Source of the DNA: Clostridia bacterium
GTDB lineage: Bacteria; Bacillota; Clostridia; Peptostreptococcales; Anaerovoracaceae
Length of the DNA: 64,000 nt
Direction: 5' to 3'
NCBI GenBank assembly: GCA_910575405.1
Contig: CAJTER010000021.1
Location: 1 to 64,000, forward strand
The notes below the pieces were generated by a model. It saw only the letters and a list, made by a program, of their open reading frames with translations, made no database searches and was not told the DNA's origin. The position numbers were made by a program, and so were the translations under genes. This document shows positions 1-18,453 of this stretch, in pieces. Within the stretch, counting starts at the first letter, position 1. Each line of letters opens with the position of its first letter.

Positions 1-114
1 CATGCGCTGTTCCCGTAAAGGATTTCTCCTTAGTCGGTAAGGCAGATTGTTTCGCACACTGCCGTGTGCGGCAGTACCTTAAACTGCTTTGCACAGCGCC
101 CTATCTGGGCGCAC
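1..114 (-). mobile_element. 5' end of a group II intron (Ll.LtrB-like class) inserted in virB4
   Basis: Read on the minus strand from position 114, the sequence begins GTGCGCCCAGATAGGG, the 5' end typical of bacterial group IIA introns related to lactococcal Ll.LtrB. It continues with AGTTTAAGGTACT and, near position 15, with ACGGGAACAG, both in the order and spacing I recall for domain I of that intron. The insertion falls exactly between codons of virB4, after the TQNVK motif. The rest of the ribozyme, the reverse transcriptase ORF and the 3' exon lie beyond position 1. Identification rests on recalled consensus, not on a search. Confidence 0.85.
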
Positions 115-2181
115 TTTCACGTTCTGCGTGAGGGCCGAGGGCACACAGCCCTTTTTGCGGAGCATCTTCCACACCGCCACAAAGTAGCTGGCGGTCAGCG
201 GGTCGCGGAGCAGGATGTGGAACTCGTCAAAGTAGCACCATGTCGCCGCGCCGCTTTTATAGTTGGTATTCACCGCCGAGGTGACAAACTCGTTGGTGAC
301 GTGCATCGCAATCTTGCGGAGGTTCTCCCCCAGCCCTTTTAACACGATGCACACCACCCGGGAGCTCAAGTCCACGTTGGTCGGGTGGTTGAAAAGATTA
401 AGGGAGCCCGTACAGTAGAGCTCCAGCGCAGTCGCCACACGTTTCGCCTCCGGCTCCGGCTGTTTGAGTAATTCCTCGTACAAGCTCTGGAGCAAAGGCA
501 TCTTTGCGCCCTCCAGCCCCAGCGCAAGCTCCCGGTACACCAGCCGCACACAGCGGTCAATCACGGTCTTTTCAATAGGTTGCAGGCCGTCCTTGCCGCC
601 TACCACCAGCTCACAGAGGGAAAGCAGAAAATCCGCTTTCATGGAAAGGGGGCTGTCCTCGTCATTCAAACCGATTTCAATATCCATCGGGTTGATATGG
701 TGGGGGCTGTCCGGGGCAATCTCAATGACCTGCCCGCCCAGCCGCCGCACCAGCGGGGAATATTCCCCCATTGGGTCAACGATAACGATGCGGTCACTTG
801 TGGCAAGAAAGACGTTTATCAATTCCCGCTTGGCGGCAAAGCTCTTGCCGGAGCCCGTGGAGCCGAGATACATCCCATTGGCGGATTTCAGCTTTTTCCG
901 GTCAGCCATGATGACATTGTGGGAAAGCGCGTTCATGCCGTAGTAGAGGGCCTGCCCGCCCATACGGAGCTCCCGGGTCATAAAGGGAATGAAAATCGCG
1001 GTGGAGCTGGTGGTCATGCCCCGCTGTATCTGCACCTCGTTATAGCCGAGGGCCAGCGAGGACATAAAGCCCTGTTCCTGCTGCCAGTCCAGCCGCTTTA
1101 AGGCGCAGTTGTATTTCTGCGCGATGCCGGAAACGGTGAACACGTCATTTTCCAGCCGCTGGCGGGTGGGGGCAAGGTTGATGACGGTGAACGTCAAGAG
1201 GAACATCCGCTCATTCCGGGACTGCAAATCCCCTAAAAGCTCCGCCGCGTCCTTGCTGAACGTGATAAGGTCGGGGGGAAGAATATCCATGTCGTACCCG
1301 GCGCGGACGGCCTTTTTCTGCTCCTCCACTTTCATCTTGTCAATGTCTGAGATTTTCCCCTTGATGGTCTTTATCGCCTTGAGCTGGTCAACGGTCTGGA
1401 TGTGCATGGTGACGGTGAGCTCCGCGTCAAGCTCCAGAATTTCCCGCAAAAGGCGGTCAGAGAGCTCGGACGCCAAAATCTGAAGATAGGATGCCGCGCC
1501 CCAAAAGCCGCCCACACGGAAGAACCGGGAGCCCCGGAAGTCAAAGCCGCCGTTTGGGGTGATAAAGTCCTTTGTCCCCATGCCCGTTCTGGAAATATCG
1601 CCCCATGAAAAGCGGAACGGCTCCCGCCGTCCGGGGTGCATCTGCCCATGCAGGAGGGCCAGCCGCTCCCGCCCGTCCAGCGGGGACGAGGGAACGCCCA
1701 GCCGGTGGAGGTTCCCCATCACGTCCGCCTCTACCCGGTCAAGCCGGGGCCGGGCGGCGGCAATCCCCTCGGCGGGCACGCCAAAGGTGATATATTTGGA
1801 GCGTTCAATGCCGTTGTTGCTCCGGGCAATCTGCCGTTTGAGCATCCCCACGAACTCGCCCCGGATGCTGTCAAAATCGTCCGCCTGGGCGGGGATGTTC
1901 ACATGGTAGCGGCTGGTGGAGTGGGAGCGGCGGTTGATAAAGGAGAGCTGGACGGGGAGCGCGCTGTCGAAGTAGTTGAGGAACGAGCTCCACCCGCTGA
2001 ATATCGCGGACTGATCCTCGGTGGATGCCACGGAATAATTGATGTCCTCATATTCCACGGTCTTTGTGTAGAGCCCTCCGGGGAGCTGGCACACCCCGTC
2101 CGGGTGCATCGCCACATAGGGGATGGACTGCTGGGCGGATAAGGCCGCCTTATTCTTTCTTTTGCTTTTTCGGTTTTCCAT
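115..2181 (-). CDS. virB4: VirB4-type conjugation ATPase, 5' exon (split by group II intron)
   Basis: ATPase of the type IV secretion channel that powers DNA transfer of the ICE, acting at the inner face of the membrane. The exon gives 689 residues. Walker A GSTGSGKS lies at about residues 440-447 and the Walker B-like segment with FDEFHILL at about 651-658. Relatives are near 790-800 residues, so about 100 C-terminal residues are missing here; after K689 the reading frame enters intron sequence and stops at 79-81. Removal of the intron should restore the frame because the junction is phase 0. Start ATG at 2181 has GGAGG nearby and overlaps prgI by 32 bases, indicating coupling. Without splicing the product would lack the last ATPase motifs. 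Confidence 0.92.
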
Positions 2182-2524
2182 TCACTGCCTCCTTTCCCGC
2201 CTGCCCGGTAAAGGGCGCGTAGATATTCCCGGTCTTGTAGGGCCTCACGCCGGGCCGCAGGTACTTGGCCCGGAGGATGTTCTTTACCACCTTTTCCAGC
2301 GGCAGGCCGTCTTTCTCGTACATCGCCAGAAGAAACGCCGGGAGCATGATGCCCAGCATCAGGAACAACGCCGCCGTGTTCCCAAACGAGCTCCGGGCCA
2401 GCAGGTAGGAGGGGACTCCCACAAGGGCCGCGCCGCCGAAACACACAAGCTGGCGTTTTGTCAGATTGAAAGCGATTTTGGTCTTGATTTTCGATAGGTC
2501 GTTAGGTACGTTCACATAGGGCAT
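2150..2524 (-). CDS. PrgI family protein (VirB3-like channel subunit)
   Basis: Small membrane protein of about 124 residues found directly before VirB4 in Gram-positive conjugation modules, where it corresponds to VirB3. The N-terminus MPYVNVPNDLSKIKTKIAF is typical of the family. Two hydrophobic segments follow (about residues 27-65), then a basic tail rich in lysine. The start at 2524 is chosen over an upstream in-frame ATG because GGAAAGGAGG sits directly before it. It overlaps the start of virB4. Confidence 0.88.
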   Translation of the reverse strand: MPYVNVPNDLSKIKTKIAFNLTKRQLVCFGGAALVGVPSYLLARSSFGNTAALFLMLGIMLPAFLLAMYEKDGLPLEKVVKNILRAKYLRPGVRPYKTGNIYAPFTGQAGKEAVNGKPKKQKKE

Positions 2525-2526
2525 TT

Positions 2527-3198
2527 TTAGCCTCCTTTCCTTTGGGACTCGTCGGCACAAACTTCACTCCGCTCACTTCGGGACATTTTGTCCCAAAGCT
2601 CGCCCCGTTCCGTTGTGCCTCCTCTCCCCACAAAGTCTGCCGACTTTGCGGGGGCCCCGAAATTTTGAAGTCCCTCAGTGGGCTCTACCTCGTTCCCCCA
2701 CACGTCCCAGCCGGGGGCCGTCTGGCGGGCGAACAGCTCCACCCGGGGCACGTCCCCCATAAGGGCCACGATTTTTTCACGGGCCTCGTCCGGCTTTTTG
2801 CTGTGGCCCTCGATAGGGGAGATGATGAACTGGTGGACGTTGGGGGCCTTGCGCCGGGGATGCCCACGGGTCGCCAGCAGGCACACCTCCGCGTTGGCCC
2901 GCGTCCAAAAGCCCAGCCCATAAAACCAGCTATCGGCTTTCTTGTTCTTTTTCAGCCAGACAAAGCCCACGGACTTATACTGAAAGCCCCACGCCTTGAT
3001 AAGCCGCAGGGCCTCCGGGAGCTGGGGGAACGTGGCCCACAGAAAAAGAACGCTGTCCGGGGCCGCCAAATCCGCCACGGGCAACGCGCATAATTCCTCA
3101 ATCCCCATCGTGGGGTAGTGCCGCTCCGCCGCACCTTGCAGGCCCTTTTGGGCGTACCGCCACGGCGGGTCGGCATAGATAACAGAATAGCTCTTGAT
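2527..3198 (-). CDS. MT-A70 family adenine methyltransferase, no standard start codon
   Basis: Adenine-N6 methyltransferase of the MT-A70 family, probably acting on DNA to modify or protect the ICE. The catalytic DPPW motif is encoded at about 3,157-3,168, upstream of the first in-frame ATG (3,108). In this frame a TGA at 3,202-3,204 ends the preceding gene and no ATG, GTG or TTG occurs before DPPW. A well-placed Shine-Dalgarno sequence (AAAGGAG, 8 bases away) points to ATC at 3,196-3,198 as the original or actual start. Starting at 3,108 would remove the catalytic motif. The C-terminal 30 residues after GWDVWGNEVEP look unrelated to the family and contain one ICE palindrome. Length from ATC is 223 residues. 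Confidence 0.75.
   Translation of the reverse strand: MKSYSVIYADPPWRYAQKGLQGAAERHYPTMGIEELCALPVADLAAPDSVLFLWATFPQLPEALRLIKAWGFQYKSVGFVWLKKNKKADSWFYGLGFWTRANAEVCLLATRGHPRRKAPNVHQFIISPIEGHSKKPDEAREKIVALMGDVPRVELFARQTAPGWDVWGNEVEPTEGLQNFGAPAKSADFVGRGGTTERGELWDKMSRSERSEVCADESQRKGG
2576..2598. repeat. ICE palindrome copy a (GGGACA-n3-TGTCCC)
   Basis: Core GGGACATTTTGTCCC flanked by CTTC and AAAG, forming near-complete 10-base arms around three bases. It lies inside the non-conserved tail of the MT-A70 gene. Confidence 0.8.
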
Positions 3199-4827: not shown

Positions 4828-5694
4828 TCAGTGGGCTCCGAAGATGCTGCGGGCGATTGTCCCGGTCTTGAACAGCATGAAACAAAGGAGCACCGTATAG
4901 CCCACGGTTCCCCATATCGCGCCGATGGGGTCGCCCCCAGCGGCGATGTTCTGCACCAGCACCGCATAGATGCCGACGCAGACTAAAATCAGCATCCCTT
5001 GAAAGCCCACGGCGAAAAGGGATTTTAAGTAGTTCTGCCCCATGCCGCCCACCTCCCGGTTGGAGAGGGTCGCCACGGGGATGGGCGCAAGGCTGGTCAG
5101 CAGATATATTTCAATCATTCTTCCGTACACCAGCACGAAGATGATGATGCCCAGCGCCTGCATGGTGAGCCCGATGACCGAGGACTGGAGCCACAGCCCA
5201 AGGAGCGGGCCCAAGTCCATCCCCTCCAGCGTGGTCTGGAGGTTGTTCAGCATATCCGGCGAAACCGCCGTGGAGCCTTGTATCAGCCCGGCAGAGCGGG
5301 AAATCACGCTCTGCGACACGTCAAAGACGGCCATCACGATATTGAACGTGTTGGAAAGTATCAGCACCGCACACGCGGTCTTGAACATCCATTTGTAGAG
5401 GTTCGCCACGTCTACTTCGTGCATATTGTTTTTTTCAAGGAGCATCTGTATCAGCTCATAGGTGGCAACAAAGGTCAGCACCAGCCCGGCGATGGGTAAA
5501 ATCACCGTCTCGGAAAGCTGGCGGATAAGGGAGAAAACCCCGGCGTTCCATGCCGCCGGGGTCGTCCCTACCTGCACCGCAATCTCTCCGACCTGGGCAT
5601 TGACGGTATCAAAGAGCCCCTCAAGGTTCCCCATGATGCCGCCAATCAAAAGCTCCTTGAGCCAGTCTGTGAGCCAGTCGGTGAGAAAGTCCAT
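4828..5694 (-). CDS. VirB6/TrbL-like conjugation membrane protein
   Basis: Polytopic membrane protein of 288 residues forming part of the conjugation channel. An N-terminal amphipathic stretch (MDFLTDWLTDWLKELL) is followed by at least five or six hydrophobic segments, with a conserved-looking cytoplasmic EKNNMHEVD stretch. It belongs to the VirB6/TrbL group placed between Maff2 and PrgI/VirB4 in this ICE family. Start ATG at 5,694 follows GGGCGGCGG, a weak ribosome site, and lies 12 bases after the maff2 stop. Confidence 0.88.
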   Translation of the reverse strand: MDFLTDWLTDWLKELLIGGIMGNLEGLFDTVNAQVGEIAVQVGTTPAAWNAGVFSLIRQLSETVILPIAGLVLTFVATYELIQMLLEKNNMHEVDVANLYKWMFKTACAVLILSNTFNIVMAVFDVSQSVISRSAGLIQGSTAVSPDMLNNLQTTLEGMDLGPLLGLWLQSSVIGLTMQALGIIIFVLVYGRMIEIYLLTSLAPIPVATLSNREVGGMGQNYLKSLFAVGFQGMLILVCVGIYAVLVQNIAAGGDPIGAIWGTVGYTVLLCFMLFKTGTIARSIFGAH

Positions 5695-5848: not shown

Positions 5849-5898
5849 TTGTTAAGAGAACCGTCCCGGCGGGACAGGTCAGGCAGTGACCTGTTCCA
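5849..5898 (-). terminator. Hairpins at the end of the serine recombinase gene
   Basis: On the minus strand CAGGTCAC/TGACCTG and GTCCCG/CGGGAC form two adjacent hairpins around the recombinase stop codon, followed by only a short T-rich stretch. Termination is plausible but weak. Confidence 0.4.
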
Positions 5899-7549
5899 CC
5901 TCCGGGATGGGTTTGAGATTAAAATGAATTTCGATAGAAATGTGTCTTGTTTTATTTTCGTCAATGCGCTCATGCACGACGATTTCTTTGATTAAGCGGT
6001 TGAGGGTGGCTGCGTCCAGCTCTGTGATGTTGGCGTATTCCTGAATGGCTTCCACCCATTGTTTTGCGTCATTGGCAAGCTGGACTTCATCGGACAGCCG
6101 CTTCCTGCCCTCGGACACTTTTGTTTTAAGCTCCGTCTGCTCGGTCTGTGTCCTTTCCAGCATGGTGTTGAAGTTCTGCTCACTGATACGCCCTGCAATC
6201 ATATCCTCATAAAGCCGCATTACCATTTTGTCCAGAACCTCAATCCGTTCCTCGTCCCTTGTAAGGGAGCGTTCCATTGCTTCCCGCTGTTCCCGCTGCT
6301 CGGCTTCACAGGTATTGGTCAGGCGGTCGGCAACCGCTTCCCCGTCCATCAGGGCAGCTCTGGCACATTCCCGTATTTTCCGTAGCACATGGCTGTAAAG
6401 GGTGTCATAATCAATCCGGTGCTGGGTGCAGTGGTTCTTTCCAAAGGCATTGTAGGTTTTGCAGGAGTATATCCGCTGGGGATGTTTTGCGTTTGTGTAG
6501 CGTATCGTCAGCGACTTCCCACACTCGCCGCATTTTAGCAGTCCGGCAAACAGGCTGATTTCATTGGTCTGCCCCGGACGCTGGCGGGATTTCAGCTTGT
6601 TCTGCACAATGTCAAAACTCATGCGGTCAATCAGCGGTTCATGCTGTCCCTCCACCACAATCCAGTCCTCCGGCTTCTTTTCCCCAATCGTGCCGATTTT
6701 GAAGCGGTAGTCTTTTTTCTGGGAAGCAATCGCCCCGGTGTAGACGGGATTCATCAAAAGGTCTTTGATAACGGAGAAGTCCCACATATACCGCCCGTTT
6801 TCCGGGTCTTTCTTTTCCCATTTGGTGCGGGTATTGCGAAGCCCCCGTTCCCGATTCCACCATGTGGGGCAGGGGATTTTTTCTTCCTCCAGCCGTCTGC
6901 GGATATAGTTCGGACCATGACCGTTCAGGGCATATCCGAAAATCAGCCGCACAATCGGGGCGGTTTCCTCGTCAATGAGCAGATGGTTTTTGTCCTCCGG
7001 GTCTTTCCGATACCCAAACGGGGCAAGACACCCGGTAAACTGTCCTTTCTGCGCTTTCAGAAGATAAGAGGAATGGACTTTCTTGGAAATATCCTTGCTG
7101 TACATCTCGTTCAGGATATTTTTGAACGGGGCGATGTCGTTGTTATCCCGCAGGGTGTCGATACCATCATTCATGGCGATATAGCGGACACCGTTTCTTG
7201 GGAAAAAGTCCTCAATCAAATGCCCGGTTTGCAGATAGTTCCGCCCCAGTCGGCTGAGGTCTTTCGTGATAACAAGGTTGATTTGCCTGCGCTCAATGGC
7301 TCTCAACATCCTCTGTAAATCAGGACGCTCCATGTTAAGACCTGTGAAGCCATCGTCCTGATAGACTGCCACAACCTCCCATCCCTGCTTTTCGCAGTAT
7401 TTTTCCAGCATATCACGCTGGTTTGCGATACTGGCACTTTCGCCTTGCAGGTCATCGTCCTTTGACAGCCTGCAATAGACCGCCGCACGATAGCCCCCGG
7501 CAAGTGCCTTTCCGATTGTTCTGTATTCCATTTCGTTCATCATAGCCAT
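5879..7549 (-). CDS. Large serine recombinase (integrase of the IME)
   Basis: Site-specific recombinase that would integrate and excise the IME. The N-terminal resolvase domain starts with YCRLSKDDD, placing the nucleophile at about Ser29. A recombinase domain follows, then a zinc ribbon with Cys340, Cys343, Cys363 and Cys374, and a coiled-coil C-terminal part; 556 residues is normal for TnpX/Tn4451-like enzymes. The start ATG at 7,549 immediately follows the stop of the 65-residue upstream gene (TAAATG), so translation is probably coupled. The gene lies next to the left att site as expected. Confidence 0.93.
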   Translation of the reverse strand: MAMMNEMEYRTIGKALAGGYRAAVYCRLSKDDDLQGESASIANQRDMLEKYCEKQGWEVVAVYQDDGFTGLNMERPDLQRMLRAIERRQINLVITKDLSRLGRNYLQTGHLIEDFFPRNGVRYIAMNDGIDTLRDNNDIAPFKNILNEMYSKDISKKVHSSYLLKAQKGQFTGCLAPFGYRKDPEDKNHLLIDEETAPIVRLIFGYALNGHGPNYIRRRLEEEKIPCPTWWNRERGLRNTRTKWEKKDPENGRYMWDFSVIKDLLMNPVYTGAIASQKKDYRFKIGTIGEKKPEDWIVVEGQHEPLIDRMSFDIVQNKLKSRQRPGQTNEISLFAGLLKCGECGKSLTIRYTNAKHPQRIYSCKTYNAFGKNHCTQHRIDYDTLYSHVLRKIRECARAALMDGEAVADRLTNTCEAEQREQREAMERSLTRDEERIEVLDKMVMRLYEDMIAGRISEQNFNTMLERTQTEQTELKTKVSEGRKRLSDEVQLANDAKQWVEAIQEYANITELDAATLNRLIKEIVVHERIDENKTRHISIEIHFNLKPIPEVEQVTA

Positions 7550-7747
7550 TTACCCACACAATCCAGACGGTATCTGGCTCTTTTGAACCTCATCTTCATT
7601 ATAGCTCATATCTTTCTTTTTAGCAAGATATTCTTTCGTATTTATCTTTCCGTATTTCTGGGAAATCAGGCTGACGAACACATCAGTGGCGTCCAGTTCT
7701 CCGTCAAACACAGTAGTCACATGAATCTCTGTTTTGTTTTTTGCCAT
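7550..7747 (-). CDS. Small protein preceding the serine recombinase
   Basis: A 65-residue protein (MAKNKTEIHVTTVFDGEL at the start, IPSGLCG at the end) of unknown function. From memory, similar short ORFs often sit directly before this type of recombinase in Clostridia elements. The stop codon abuts the recombinase start, so it may act as a translational coupler or accessory recombination factor. Its last codons contain an 18-base sequence also found near the right end of the element at 16,320-16,337. Confidence 0.7.
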   Translation of the reverse strand: MAKNKTEIHVTTVFDGELDATDVFVSLISQKYGKINTKEYLAKKKDMSYNEDEVQKSQIPSGLCG

Positions 7748-7791
7748 AGGCAGTTATCCTCCATACATGAAAATAGCCAGACAGAGGGTGT

Positions 7792-8073
7792 CGGCAACGA
7801 AGTCCGGCAACGGGCTTCAAAAGACCTTGCAAACAATCTCAATCTGGCACTACTTACTATTTATACTTTTCTTTTATTTTTCTGTTGTTTTGGTTGTTAT
7901 AAGGGAGAAAAGCCCGGAAATAAGGGATTTTCCCCGGCAACCGGCTCGGCAACGGGATAGCAACAGGAGGTGCAACGGGCTGTCATTCTCAGAATGGAAG
8001 CTCCATCTGTTCTGTGACCTCCACAAAACCGTCCATCGTTTTTTCAGACGGGTTGCCGGAGTCCGTTGCCGGG
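7792..8073. repeat. Cluster of CCGGCAACGG-type repeats
   Basis: Copies or part copies of CGGCAACGG occur at 7,792-7,800, 7,804-7,814, 7,934-7,942, 7,946-7,956, 7,959-7,967 and 7,971-7,979, and on the other strand at 8,051-8,059 and 8,063-8,073. They fill the 240-base gap after the VapE-like gene and reach into its 3' end. They look like iterons or protein-binding repeats; function is unknown. Confidence 0.5.
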
Positions 8074-9383
8074 TTTTCACGCTCCCAGCCCTTTTGTCTG
8101 CCATATTCTGAAAACATTCTTGGGTTCGGGAAGTACCGCCAGCCGGAAATGCACTGGTTCATAATCTCGTTGATTTCCCGGATTTCCCATTGCTTCGGCT
8201 CGTCAAAGGCATGGTTCAAGGCTTCCTTGTAAAGCTGCTTGGAGCAGACCATGCTCCCGGTGTACTTATCAAGATACGCCTGTATCATTCCGGCTTTGGT
8301 GTCCTCCGGCATAAAATCCCGCTGGTGTTCTTTGAGATACCGCTGCATGGCGGGGCTGAAAGCCAGCTTGAACCTGCCGCTTCGGTAAATCTCCATCGCT
8401 TCCGCCCACATCTGCCCGATATAGGCTCTGGAAGCAGTTTCGTCCTCCAAAATGTGAACCTCGGCTTGCTCCGGGTACACCATGACCGGGATAAAGCGGC
8501 GGTTGCCGGAACGGTCAAGGGGCAGGAAGTCAAGGGCATTGGAAGTGCCGCCAAACACGCACTGACGGGGGCGGTCTGCCGGGTGGGTTTCATAGGGTAT
8601 CTTGTAAACCTCTTTCTGCCGGCTTAAAAACGACTTGATTTCCTCAATGCTCTTGGCGTTGGCGGTTGCCATCATTTCCGACATTTCGATAATCCAGTGA
8701 CCTTGCAGCTTACGGTACACATTGTCATCGTCCAGCTTCCGCAAATCATCGGAGAACCACTCGTCCCGGACTGCCAGCAGACGGAAGAAGGTGGACTTGC
8801 CAGCCCCCTGACCTCCGACCAGACAGAGCATGATTTCAAACTTGCACCCCGGCTGAAAGGCTCGTGAGATAGCGCCCATCAGGAACAGCTTCAACGCTTC
8901 ATAGGTGTAATCATCTGCGTCAGCTCCCAGAAAGTGCCGTAGGCAGAAGCGGATTCGTTCCTTCCCGTCCCACACAAGGGAACTTAAATAATCCCGGATG
9001 GGATGATACTTGTTTTCATTCGCCACAATCCCGATGGCGTTATCAATCTTTTTCTCATTGGTAAGCCCGTAGGTTTCTTCCAGATAGAGAAGCAGATACT
9101 TCATGTCCGTATCGTTCAGGGCGGTGCTTTCCCTTTGAAAACCGATGGGCTTTATAATATCTTTGCGGTCGGTCAGGATGTTGTATGCGATAGCTCCGGA
9201 AAGCAGCGGGTCACGCTGGAATACGGTCAGGCAGTTCCGTATACTCTGACGGACGCCGCCTTTCTCGGTGGTTTCCAGCCCCGCCTTGATTTCCTCAATG
9301 CTCTGGGGCGGCTGCATGGCGTTCATGGTGTTTTTTAGTTCTTGCTGCGTCTGTGGCTGCAAGCTCTGCCATTCGCTGTTCAA
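7989..9383 (-). CDS. VapE-like P-loop ATPase (virulence-associated E family)
   Basis: Protein of 464 residues with Walker A GGQGAGKST at about 190-198, typical of the virulence-associated protein E / D5-like helicase group that accompanies mobile-element primases. It probably helps replicate the excised IME. It overlaps the primase gene upstream by 89 bases, with no clear ribosome site at 9,383; ATG 9,326 is an alternative start. The 3' end overlaps the CGGCAACGG repeats. Confidence 0.82.
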   Translation of the reverse strand: MNSEWQSLQPQTQQELKNTMNAMQPPQSIEEIKAGLETTEKGGVRQSIRNCLTVFQRDPLLSGAIAYNILTDRKDIIKPIGFQRESTALNDTDMKYLLLYLEETYGLTNEKKIDNAIGIVANENKYHPIRDYLSSLVWDGKERIRFCLRHFLGADADDYTYEALKLFLMGAISRAFQPGCKFEIMLCLVGGQGAGKSTFFRLLAVRDEWFSDDLRKLDDDNVYRKLQGHWIIEMSEMMATANAKSIEEIKSFLSRQKEVYKIPYETHPADRPRQCVFGGTSNALDFLPLDRSGNRRFIPVMVYPEQAEVHILEDETASRAYIGQMWAEAMEIYRSGRFKLAFSPAMQRYLKEHQRDFMPEDTKAGMIQAYLDKYTGSMVCSKQLYKEALNHAFDEPKQWEIREINEIMNQCISGWRYFPNPRMFSEYGRQKGWERENPATDSGNPSEKTMDGFVEVTEQMELPF

Positions 9384-9939
9384 GCTGTATCACATCCTTT
9401 CCGTAGTCCGTAATCAAAGCCGCTTTTTCCTCCGTCTCCCCAAACAGCAGCACATCCAGCAGATATTCCACATGGGCTTGCTTCTGTAAGGCTTCCACAA
9501 ACCGGGGATGAAAGGCTTCCTCCGGGGAGTGCGGGGCGTAGTCCATTCTCCATGCCATCAGCAAGTGAAGATAATCGGCAAGGGTACGGAAGCAGCGGCT
9601 CTTTGCTTCCTGAAACTGTTCCTCCGGGGATTTCTGCCGGGGCTTGGGCTTTTTTGCCTTTCCCGGCGGTTTCCAGTCCTCATAGGAAAGCCCGAAGTCC
9701 TGTGCCAGTTGTACGGCGGCTTCTTTCTTTCCCAGCCCATACAGGGCGGCGGCAAAATCAATCACATCCCCATCCGCACCGCAGCCGAAGCAGTGGTAAC
9801 GCCTATCCAGCTTCATGCTTGGGGTTTTATCGTGATGGAACGGGCAGCAAGCCATCCCGTTCCGACCTATATGGATTCCATAATGCTCCGCAGCCTGTCT
9901 GGTTGTGACGGACTGCTTCACAGCTTCAAATAAATTCAA
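9295..9939 (-). CDS. CHC2 zinc-finger DNA primase (short form)
   Basis: Protein of 214 residues with the DnaG-type zinc finger CCPFHHDKTPS and YHCFGCGADGDVIDF (Cys/His ligands) in the first 65 residues. No TOPRIM catalytic domain is visible, so primase activity may require the VapE-like partner or be absent. The start is TTG at 9,939, set by GGAGGGATAGA upstream; no ATG fits. The long C-terminal part is charged and unrecognised. Confidence 0.82.
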   Translation of the reverse strand: MNLFEAVKQSVTTRQAAEHYGIHIGRNGMACCPFHHDKTPSMKLDRRYHCFGCGADGDVIDFAAALYGLGKKEAAVQLAQDFGLSYEDWKPPGKAKKPKPRQKSPEEQFQEAKSRCFRTLADYLHLLMAWRMDYAPHSPEEAFHPRFVEALQKQAHVEYLLDVLLFGETEEKAALITDYGKDVIQLEQRMAELAATDAARTKKHHERHAAAPEH

Positions 9940-10003
9940 ATCTATCCCTCCTTAAAAAGAAAAAAGCACCTGACATTCTCTGCTTGAAAATGGCAAGTGC
10001 CTG

Positions 10004-11584
10004 TTAAAGTTCCATATCCTGTTGTCTGTGTTTCGTCTGCGCCGGGGCGGTTCTTTGTGCTTTTTTCTCGTCTGCCTTATCCTGCAAGACTTCCTTGATA
10101 GGCTGCTTCTTGGGCGGCTCTTTGCTTTCCTCTGTGCCGGGTGTGGCTTTCCGTACCCAGTAGCGGATGTCCCGCAGCTTCTTCAAATCCTCCTGTACCT
10201 CGGTCAGCGGTACTTTCAGCTCTGCGATTTCGCTAAGAAGCGTTTCCTGCTCCTGTTGCAGCTCATTTTTCGTTTTATCCTTATCGTCCGGGTGCTTGGC
10301 AAGATAGGCGGCGGCTTTCGCATATCGGGCAACCTCCGGGTGTTCCTGTTTGAATTTCTCCTTTGTTTTCTTGAAAAATATCTTCTGGTACTTCTCATAG
10401 ACAGGCTTACATTCCTTGCAGTCTGTCCGGCTGGCAAGAATCCCATCAATCACTTTGCTGCGGGCTTCCTTTGGCTTCATCTGACTGCGGTAATCGGCGG
10501 CTGATTTCCCGGAAGATTCCAGAAACGCTTCTAAGTCCTCCACAGTGGAAAGCCCCTTTTGCCGGAGATAGGACAGGGCTTCGCTGACTGCCTTTAAGTC
10601 CTGTGAAGTCCCCCGGTTCTGTCCAGCCCTTGTCCAGTCCTTCCGTTCTTCCTTTCGTATCTCCATATACTTCATCAGCAGATTGGGAAGAAGTGTTGCC
10701 TCCTCCGCCGCCTTTTGTGCAAGCAGCTCTTTCCGTTTTTCGCCCAGCTCGGTAATCCAGCCTTTGAGGTTTTGGATAAGCTGCCGGATCGACTTCATCA
10801 GATTGTTGGCGGCTTTGATTTCCCGGTTCAGGCTGCCGATATTCGTCTGAATACCACGCTTTTCCATCTGACGGACAGCAGCCCCCTCATGGACAGTAGG
10901 GATAATATCAAGCCCCTGTCTGGCATAGGAACGCAAGTCCACACGCTCCGGGCGGTCATTGGCTTCCAGATAGCGGTTCTGGATGACCTCCCATTCATGC
11001 CGCCAGATTTCGCAATACTTCTGGTCGTTCCAGTCCACCGTATCCTCCTTGTGGCTTTTCCACCTGCCAGACGGAAGTTTGATCCGTTCCCCGTTTTCGT
11101 CAAGGTCATAAACTTTGCGGCTCTTGGGAAGCCATTTCCCATGTTCGTCCATTGCCCGCATGGTCAGCAGGACATGGGCGTGGGGATTATGTCCCGGCGG
11201 ATGGGGGTCATGGATAGCAAAATCAGCAATCATGCCTTTGGAAACAAACTGCTTCTGGCAAAACTCCCGGACAAGGACAGCGTACTGGTCGGGCGGTATT
11301 TCTCTGGGGATGGTAAGCACCCACCGCCTTGCAAGCTGAGAGTTCCATTGCTTCTCCACCGCTTCGGCGGCGTTCCATAAGGTATTGCGGTCTGCATATT
11401 CCTGTGGGGCATTTGCCGGGAGCAGGATTTCATTGTGGACGATACCACGCTTTTCTGGGTAGTGCTTCACTTGCTGGTCGTATTCACAGAACAGCTTTTC
11501 GCCACTCTGGTAAGCAGCGGCGGCAACCGCAGACTGCCGCTGGCTGCGCTGAACAATCGTGATTTCGTTGTGTGGACAGGGCAT
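10004..11584 (-). CDS. mobL: MobA/MobL family relaxase
   Basis: Relaxase that would nick the IME oriT and lead the strand into a helper channel. The N-terminus carries AAYQSGEKL with a candidate catalytic tyrosine near residue 25 and the metal-binding histidine motif HDPHPPGHNPHAHVLLTMR near residues 123-141. The C-terminal half is rich in lysine and glutamate and probably coiled-coil. Length 526 residues. The start is fixed by GAAAGGAGGGACACGA. The family is MOBQ, matching the nick-site sequence proposed at 12,916-12,929. Confidence 0.92.
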   Translation of the reverse strand: MPCPHNEITIVQRSQRQSAVAAAAYQSGEKLFCEYDQQVKHYPEKRGIVHNEILLPANAPQEYADRNTLWNAAEAVEKQWNSQLARRWVLTIPREIPPDQYAVLVREFCQKQFVSKGMIADFAIHDPHPPGHNPHAHVLLTMRAMDEHGKWLPKSRKVYDLDENGERIKLPSGRWKSHKEDTVDWNDQKYCEIWRHEWEVIQNRYLEANDRPERVDLRSYARQGLDIIPTVHEGAAVRQMEKRGIQTNIGSLNREIKAANNLMKSIRQLIQNLKGWITELGEKRKELLAQKAAEEATLLPNLLMKYMEIRKEERKDWTRAGQNRGTSQDLKAVSEALSYLRQKGLSTVEDLEAFLESSGKSAADYRSQMKPKEARSKVIDGILASRTDCKECKPVYEKYQKIFFKKTKEKFKQEHPEVARYAKAAAYLAKHPDDKDKTKNELQQEQETLLSEIAELKVPLTEVQEDLKKLRDIRYWVRKATPGTEESKEPPKKQPIKEVLQDKADEKKAQRTAPAQTKHRQQDMEL

Positions 11585-16611: not shown

Positions 16612-18453
16612 CTATACAAAAGCGTCCGGGTCGTCCAAATCGTCATAGTTGAGGATGTCCTCGTCCTCGTCTATGGGCGTTCCGTCCGGCACGTCCGCCT
16701 CGTACACGGTGTACTGCTCGTTGGGATTGAGCTTTTTTATACGGCGGCAGATAAGCCGCTCCAGCGAAAAGGCGTTTTTCTTCTTGTCCGCCTCCGCCGT
16801 GTATCGGTAGTTGGGGTGCTGTTTCAAATCGTATTTCCGGGAGTAGAACGGCGGCAGGCCCCGCAGTTGCAGGATGCACCTGTCGCCGGGCATGGTGGCA
16901 AGCTCGGCGGGGGTCATAAGCTCCCGGCCCAGCCGCTGGGTGTTCTGGTTGTAGCTTTCCGACTGCCCACGGGAGCGGCCCTCGGTCTGCATGGAGATAG
17001 TCGCTTTCCCCAGCCAGTTCTCGGAAATCTCCTTGATAGTGCTGGCCTCCCGGCCCCCGAGGAATACCACGCTGTCCATGTTGCCTAAAATGGTTTCCGC
17101 GTTCTTGTCGTAGATTGCCTTACATTGGGCCAACTGCTGGTAGAACAGCGTCAGGCTCACCTCCCGGGAGCGGATGACCGCCACCAGCTTTTCGAGGTTC
17201 GGCACCTGCCCGGTGTTGGCGGCCTCGTCCCACAGCACCCGCACATGATGGGGCAGGCGGCCCCCGTGTACGTTGTCCGCCCTTTCGCACAAGAGATTGA
17301 ACATCTGCGAAAACGCCAGAGCTACAATAAAGTTGTAGGTGGTGTCGGTATCGCTGATGATGAAGAACGCCGCCGTCCGTCTGTCCCCCAGCTTGTCAAG
17401 CTCCATCTCGTCATAGCTCATAATCTCCCGGAGTTGCGGGATGTCAAAGGGGGCCAGCCGCGCACCGCATGAAATCAGTATGGAGCGGGCAGTCTTGCCG
17501 CTGGCCAGCTTGTACTTTTTGTACTGCTTGACCGCGAAACAGTCCGGCTTGCGCTTTTCCAGCCCGGCGAACATATAGTCCACCGCGTTCATGAAATCGT
17601 CATCGTCCTCCTTGACCTCCATGCCGGAAATCATGTCTACCAGCGTGTTCATGTTCTTGTCCTCGTCCGGGCCCTCGAAGATGATATAGGCGATAAGGGC
17701 GCAGTATAAAAGCGTTTCTGATTTCGTCCAGAACGGGTCGCCCTCCTTGCCCTCGCCTTTGGTGTTGGCGATTAAGGTATTGACGAATTTCAAAATATCG
17801 GCCTCGTTGCGGATATACGCTAACGGGTTGTAGTGCATGGAGCGGGAAAAATCAATGCTGTTAAAAACCTTGATTTTATATCCCTTTTTCCGTTGCAGGA
17901 AAAAGCCCGCCTGCTCCAGCACCCCGCCTTTTGGGTCTACCACCACATAGGAGGAATGGGCCTGGAGTAATTGCGGGGTAAGCCAGAACCGGGTCTTGCC
18001 GGAGCCGGAGGAACCGACAACACAGCAATTCAGGTTCCGGGCGTTGGCGGGGACGGCGGGCCGGGTGTTGGTGGTGAGAAATTCCGTCCCGGTCAGAATG
18101 ATGTTGTTCTCAAACCTGGGGTCGGTGAACGGCTTGATGTCTTTTTCCGTTCCCCAGCGGGCCGAACCATATTCTTCATCCCGGCGGTATTTTTGGGCTT
18201 TTTTGCTTTTCTGGTAGATAATCAGCCGGATCGCCACGGCCCCCGCGATGCCAGTGAGCCAGTCAAAAGGATTGAGCCCCGGCGCGAAGTCGGCAAAGGC
18301 CGGGCCGAGGGCCGCCACCATCCCCACCAGCTTGTGGGCCAAATCCGCCCCCGCCGCCAGACGGTAGGCCGTCCCCACTTTCAGGCAGGCCCACGCGATG
18401 AACAGATAGGGGAGGTTCGGCAAAAGGTACTTTTTCAGCTTATCTGTCCTCAT
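16612..18453 (-). CDS. virD4: VirD4/TraG-type coupling protein
   Basis: Coupling ATPase that delivers the relaxase-DNA complex to the channel. 613 residues: two N-terminal hydrophobic segments (about 12-31 and 65-80), Walker A GSSGSGKT at 147-154, the VVVDPKGG segment typical of VirD4, and LWDEAANTGQVPNLEKL as Walker B region. The tail is acidic (DEDEDILNYDDLDDPDAF), possibly a contact surface for partners. The start overlaps the pcfB stop by 14 bases. The gene stands just before maff2, as in related ICEs. Confidence 0.94.
   Translation of the reverse strand: MRTDKLKKYLLPNLPYLFIAWACLKVGTAYRLAAGADLAHKLVGMVAALGPAFADFAPGLNPFDWLTGIAGAVAIRLIIYQKSKKAQKYRRDEEYGSARWGTEKDIKPFTDPRFENNIILTGTEFLTTNTRPAVPANARNLNCCVVGSSGSGKTRFWLTPQLLQAHSSYVVVDPKGGVLEQAGFFLQRKKGYKIKVFNSIDFSRSMHYNPLAYIRNEADILKFVNTLIANTKGEGKEGDPFWTKSETLLYCALIAYIIFEGPDEDKNMNTLVDMISGMEVKEDDDDFMNAVDYMFAGLEKRKPDCFAVKQYKKYKLASGKTARSILISCGARLAPFDIPQLREIMSYDEMELDKLGDRRTAAFFIISDTDTTYNFIVALAFSQMFNLLCERADNVHGGRLPHHVRVLWDEAANTGQVPNLEKLVAVIRSREVSLTLFYQQLAQCKAIYDKNAETILGNMDSVVFLGGREASTIKEISENWLGKATISMQTEGRSRGQSESYNQNTQRLGRELMTPAELATMPGDRCILQLRGLPPFYSRKYDLKQHPNYRYTAEADKKKNAFSLERLICRRIKKLNPNEQYTVYEADVPDGTPIDEDEDILNYDDLDDPDAFV

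Follow-up and report, generated by a model that had tools for sequence, protein, structure and literature searches.

Organization of the virB4 locus

The window—the whole 64,000-nucleotide stretch of DNA analysed here—begins within the transfer genes of an ICE. At its left end lies the 5' exon of a virB4 gene of the CD1110 family (positions 115–2181, minus strand), which comprises 689 codons and ends in ...SALTQNVK. The minus-strand frame as a whole (2181–79) encodes 700 amino acids and matches the NF045971 profile (VirB4-like, CD1110 family) with 856 bits, the match stopping at profile position 670/752; beyond it, the frame adds 11 non-VirB4 codons (VRPDRALCKAV) and then reaches a stop—the early end of the VirB4 frame that had been pointed out in the original prediction. 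The final normal virB4 codon is AAA (K, positions 117–115), the exon measures 2067 nt, a multiple of 3, and at position 114 virB4 gives way to GTGCGCCCAGATAGGGCGCTGTGC..., in which an Ll.LtrB-type group II intron opens with its 5' end, GTGCGCCCAGATAGGG. According to the ORF list, in-frame read-through of an unspliced message (79–111, minus strand) would append RPDRALCKAV and a stop, truncating VirB4, and without splicing the protein would lose its last 91 residues. The ORF list places a small putative PrgI-like gene (2150–2560, minus strand), named by its position and look only, directly ahead of virB4 in its transfer operon. The coupling-protein gene of the same ICE, a virD4 of the CD1115 family (16612–18453, minus strand; NF045973, 527 bits; Pfam T4SS-DNA_transf), is uninterrupted.

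The window holds the first 114 nt of the intron (1–114, minus strand), i.e., its 5' end and part of domain I, before the intron runs off the contig. Since window base 1 is also base 1 of contig C21, in an assembly of 125 contigs, the intron is truncated here by a break in the assembly. The GUGYG 5' end stands right at the exon boundary, as GTGCG at position 114 and in all relatives, and the same start is found in complete introns of 2436–2472 nt whose protein aligns to LtrA, in line with the Ll.LtrB-class 5' end that had been read at this position. That reading had covered positions 1–2181; the intron is indeed present at 1–114, while 115–2181 proved to be exon. When the whole window was scanned against Rfam, nothing but a tRNA was matched and no intron, as expected given that just 114 nt of the intron are contained in it, and a search of the first 126 nt against plasmid and phage records returned no match.

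Intron 3' ends and virB4 3' exons in the same genome

The domain V–VI model RF00029 scored above cut-off at two other contig ends of this genome (C45:8–103 and C52:15687–15782). Both contigs read ...CCCTAC|GAY from the intron end into the C-terminus of virB4, in frame, with a 3' exon of 92 aa in C45 (DFLASPEIENI...) and of 91 aa in C52 (DLLASREIENI...), and a comparison of the two intron 3' ends over 102 nt showed no difference. When folded, domain VI shows a bulged A at a distance of 7 nt from the intron 3' end, in support of the 3' boundary; the contigs concerned are paired to the window by inference. The virB4 exons stay open in frame on either side of the intron; when the C21 exon is joined to that of C52, a VirB4 of 780 aa results, which matches NF045971 with 975 bits over profile positions 1–752/752. 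The pairing itself draws on intergenic palindromes: GGGACA...TGTCCC is common to the window and C52, and CGGGCCA...TGGCCCG to C45 and C31, from which we infer that C21 pairs with C52 and C31 with C45. The original prediction had expected an in-phase junction and a 3' exon starting with Asp. Both expectations hold, with a 5' exon divisible by 3 and Asp as the next codon in C52 and C45. It had also looked beyond position 1 for an intron 3' end, a reverse transcriptase (RT) and the continuation of virB4; the 3' ends and exons were located on these other contigs, and the RT frame in relatives. As judged from the sequence, it can thus be considered confirmed that an Ll.LtrB-class group II intron interrupts virB4, that the junction is in phase and that the following codon encodes Asp.

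The interruption is not restricted to one element. Contig C31 carries a second, diverged virB4, whose protein is 72% identical to that of the window in the 300 aa preceding the site. This gene is likewise split by an intron at this codon junction, and the intron's 5' end matches the window copy at all of the 100 nt compared. A search of this genome's assembly for RT and GIIM domains gave no GIIM match and no extra RT for the missing body of these introns; because that body and its protein gene are unassembled, the integrity of the copies in this genome is judged from their relatives.

Complete relatives and target-site pairing

The search pattern AAYGTNAARGTGYGNCCAGATAGGG, run on genome_contigs and IMG/VR, matched 13 genome_contigs stretches and one IMG/VR contig, all of them after TQNVK of virB4; since the NVK codons are part of the pattern, insertions at sites of a different sequence would escape this count. 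Occupied sites were found in Oscillibacter, Flavonifractor plautii (twice), Collinsella aerofaciens, Blautia parvula (complete chromosome), Lachnospiraceae and Peptostreptococcaceae, among others. In the complete relatives, which stem from Blautia, Collinsella and other genomes and occupy the identical TQNVK|D site, virB4 resumes in frame as K|DLLAS, K|DLLSS or K|DFLAS, and every one of these introns keeps an open frame of ~600 aa. The Blautia intron protein has the RVT_1, Intron_maturas2 and AI2M-like HNH domains of an RT/maturase/HNH protein, and its best solved-structure match is LtrA, aligned over its full length (residues 1–596 to 1–598, E 1.5e-195). The features of the relatives, including the D/En (HNH) region of the LtrA-like protein, place the intron by sequence in the Ll.LtrB class (mitochondrial-like, IIA).

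These relatives also bear on whether the junction could be a chimera produced by the assembly, as would be conceivable from its location at the edge of each of the contigs C21, C31 and C39 (described below). In other species, the same junction lies in the interior of long contigs and of a complete chromosome, and contig ends are expected within a repeated element; we therefore rejected a chimera as extremely improbable.

Target pairing was read from the relatives' complete introns, with EBS1 lying outside the window and the EBS region of this genome's copy unassembled. A pairing scan of L026 indicated EBS1 TTTCAC (intron nt 278–283) as the partner of IBS1 GTGAAA in the window exon (115–120, minus strand), a match also drawn from a comparison of 8 introns, and EBS2 TTTTG (intron nt 223–227) as the partner of IBS2 CAGAA (122–126, minus strand). 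Among the relatives, EBS1 TTTCAC pairs with exon GTGAAR, and the C directly before EBS1 can pair with the exon +1 G (delta). The EBS1, EBS2 and delta pairings are complete in L026, L032, L033 and L034, and a single EBS1/IBS1 mismatch is present in each of L023, L024, L027 and L031; covariation between EBS1 and IBS1 across the 8 introns was not significant (p 0.16).

Signs of mobility and an additional copy of the intron

The relatedness of the introns and that of their virB4 hosts disagree. L026 and L034 carry introns that are 98.7% identical in virB4s that are 62.8% identical, whereas the introns of L023 and L024 share 75.8% identity and their virB4s 86.3%—a pattern that fits repeated site-specific homing. 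The empty site is the common state: among 391 sampled Clostridia genomes, 29 contained 33 empty places, a lower bound since the empty-site pattern misses some codon choices, and no occupied site was found in this sample besides the source genome itself.

A third copy in the source genome lies outside virB4. At the end of contig C39 (L003 1501–1627), the 5' end of this intron lies antisense inside a serine integrase gene, at the codons for SRFGRN; the interrupted gene has Resolvase and Recombinase domains and corresponds to the phrog_95 integrase. The flank at this place, CAAAACGTGAAA, differs by one base from the virB4 flank, CAGAACGTGAAA (11/12 match), and an uninterrupted integrase relative, which reads KLSRFGRN across the place, would have a G at +1, just like virB4. 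The simplest reading of the C39 copy is that the same pairing directed an ectopic insertion; being antisense, this copy would not be able to splice from the integrase mRNA. Searching the contigs of this genome revealed no third intron 3' end, nor an N-terminal half of the C39 integrase at any contig end.

Proposed splicing and retrohoming at the virB4 site

We consider it very probable that a mobile Ll.LtrB-class intron has homed into the TQNVK|D junction of virB4, most likely splices to restore full-length VirB4, and spreads by retrohoming. According to this model, the intron would home into the conserved TQNVK|D codons of ICE virB4 genes, and its own LtrA-like maturase would most likely assist splicing from the virB4 mRNA, as suggested by Ll.LtrB biology; splicing would rejoin NVK to DLLASREIENI and yield full-length VirB4. 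Movement between ICE families would proceed by retrohoming, a route likewise suggested by Ll.LtrB, with EBS1, EBS2 and delta pairing with the virB4 codons. Splicing in cells is strongly implied by the sequence features, and transfer of the ICE would then depend on it.

An inactive intron—degenerate, or left without a working protein in trans—would instead knock out virB4 and strand the ICE. The unreadable body of this genome's copies, together with the lack of any GIIM match or extra RT in the assembly, would be compatible with such a state. However, both intron ends are intact and identical between copies, the three copies imply recent mobility, the open protein frame is maintained in every complete relative, and the virB4 exons are open in frame on both sides, so that we regard inactivity as quite improbable in comparison with a mobile, splicing intron.

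A further reading adds to splicing and retrohoming rather than excluding them: the intron might serve mainly to brake the ICE, its excised form re-attacking ligated virB4 mRNA and thereby lowering VirB4. Through EBS/IBS-guided mRNA targeting, Ll.LtrB inhibits both the relaxase gene that hosts it and conjugation (PMC6003770), and the IBS is retained unchanged in the ligated virB4 junction; we entertain such a brake tentatively, as the less likely case. Somewhat more speculative still is the idea of an intron lineage specialised on just one ICE virB4 codon junction across gut Bacillota and Collinsella and acting as a cross-family parasite and throttle of ICE conjugation, with VirB4 dosage set by splicing and by retargeting of the ligated mRNA.

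Comparison with known conjugation-gene introns

Ll.LtrB, from the relaxase gene ltrB of Lactococcus lactis, and its relative Ef.PcfG have the same 5' end as the virB4 intron, and Ll.LtrB shares 68% DNA identity with it over the matched parts. Further likenesses to Ll.LtrB are the full-length LtrA-like protein (in relatives), the location in a conjugation gene and the in-trans target pairing. Unlike in Ll.LtrB and Ef.PcfG, the interrupted gene is virB4 and not a relaxase gene, the EBS/IBS sequences are different, and the host ICEs belong to gut Clostridia and to Collinsella. In Streptococcus suis, virB4 is already known to harbour group II introns in ICEs, as are helicase and coupling-protein genes (PMC12479173); each intron family occupies one conserved protein motif and is shared between ICE families, as seen here. 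The S. suis virB4 site, however, is a DPEXE motif (PMC12479173), and the intron described here is set apart by its TQNVK|D site and its Clostridia and Collinsella hosts. In plasmid pAW63, the introns B.th.I1 and B.th.I2 (the latter reported as a putative ORF-less intron) likewise reside in conjugation genes, but in other targets, Tn916 orf14-like and virD4, and in a plasmid host (PMC1196294). No paper naming the TQNVK site was found in our literature search, itself weak evidence of absence.

VirB4 is a marker for recognising ICEs, and ICEs in gut Clostridia may be undercounted because the intron makes an intact virB4 resemble a pseudogene and breaks assemblies at this place. The intron is also a naturally occurring relative of Ll.LtrB that has a wide range and a defined ICE target, which makes it useful for testing the restraint of conjugation by group II introns.

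Additional features of the ICEs and other introns

Two other kinds of group II intron were observed in the source genome. In the C31 ICE (L013, about 9180–6490), a second, different intron with a 599-aa open frame (RT and HNH) splits virD4, sitting after ...EDDETFKNG with the rest of virD4 following; with virB4 and virD4 each split by an intron, both transfer ATPases of this ICE would need splicing. A third kind, with a 629-aa open frame (RVT_1), lies in L014 (C30, about 5610–3580) and separates two parts of an apparent helicase-like protein, the 5' part of which has no Pfam family. Elsewhere, distant relatives of the virB4 intron (65–77% over parts) in L049, L063 and L050 follow genes read by eye as N-acetylmuramoyl-alanine amidase and ClpP-like protease.

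Within the window, a serine recombinase, a phage-type helicase/primase, a small primase-like gene and a MobQ relaxase are clustered at 5879–11584, between transfer genes at 4828–5694 and virD4 at 16612; this cluster may be a mobilizable element that has come to lie within the ICE. Finally, short palindromes recur between ICE genes, with one type per element. The GGGACA...TGTCCC type is present in 4 copies in the window (2577, 3959, 4796 and 16590) vs. 0.01 expected; palindromes also occur in L011 (638, 2112, 4487 and 6364), L012, L013, L026 and L031, and the CGGGCCA...TGGCCCG type belongs to the C31/C45, Blautia and L031 elements. At one position of the palindrome arm, A-T is swapped for C-G, as in a compensatory change; the palindromes may represent RNA hairpins or sites for a regulator.
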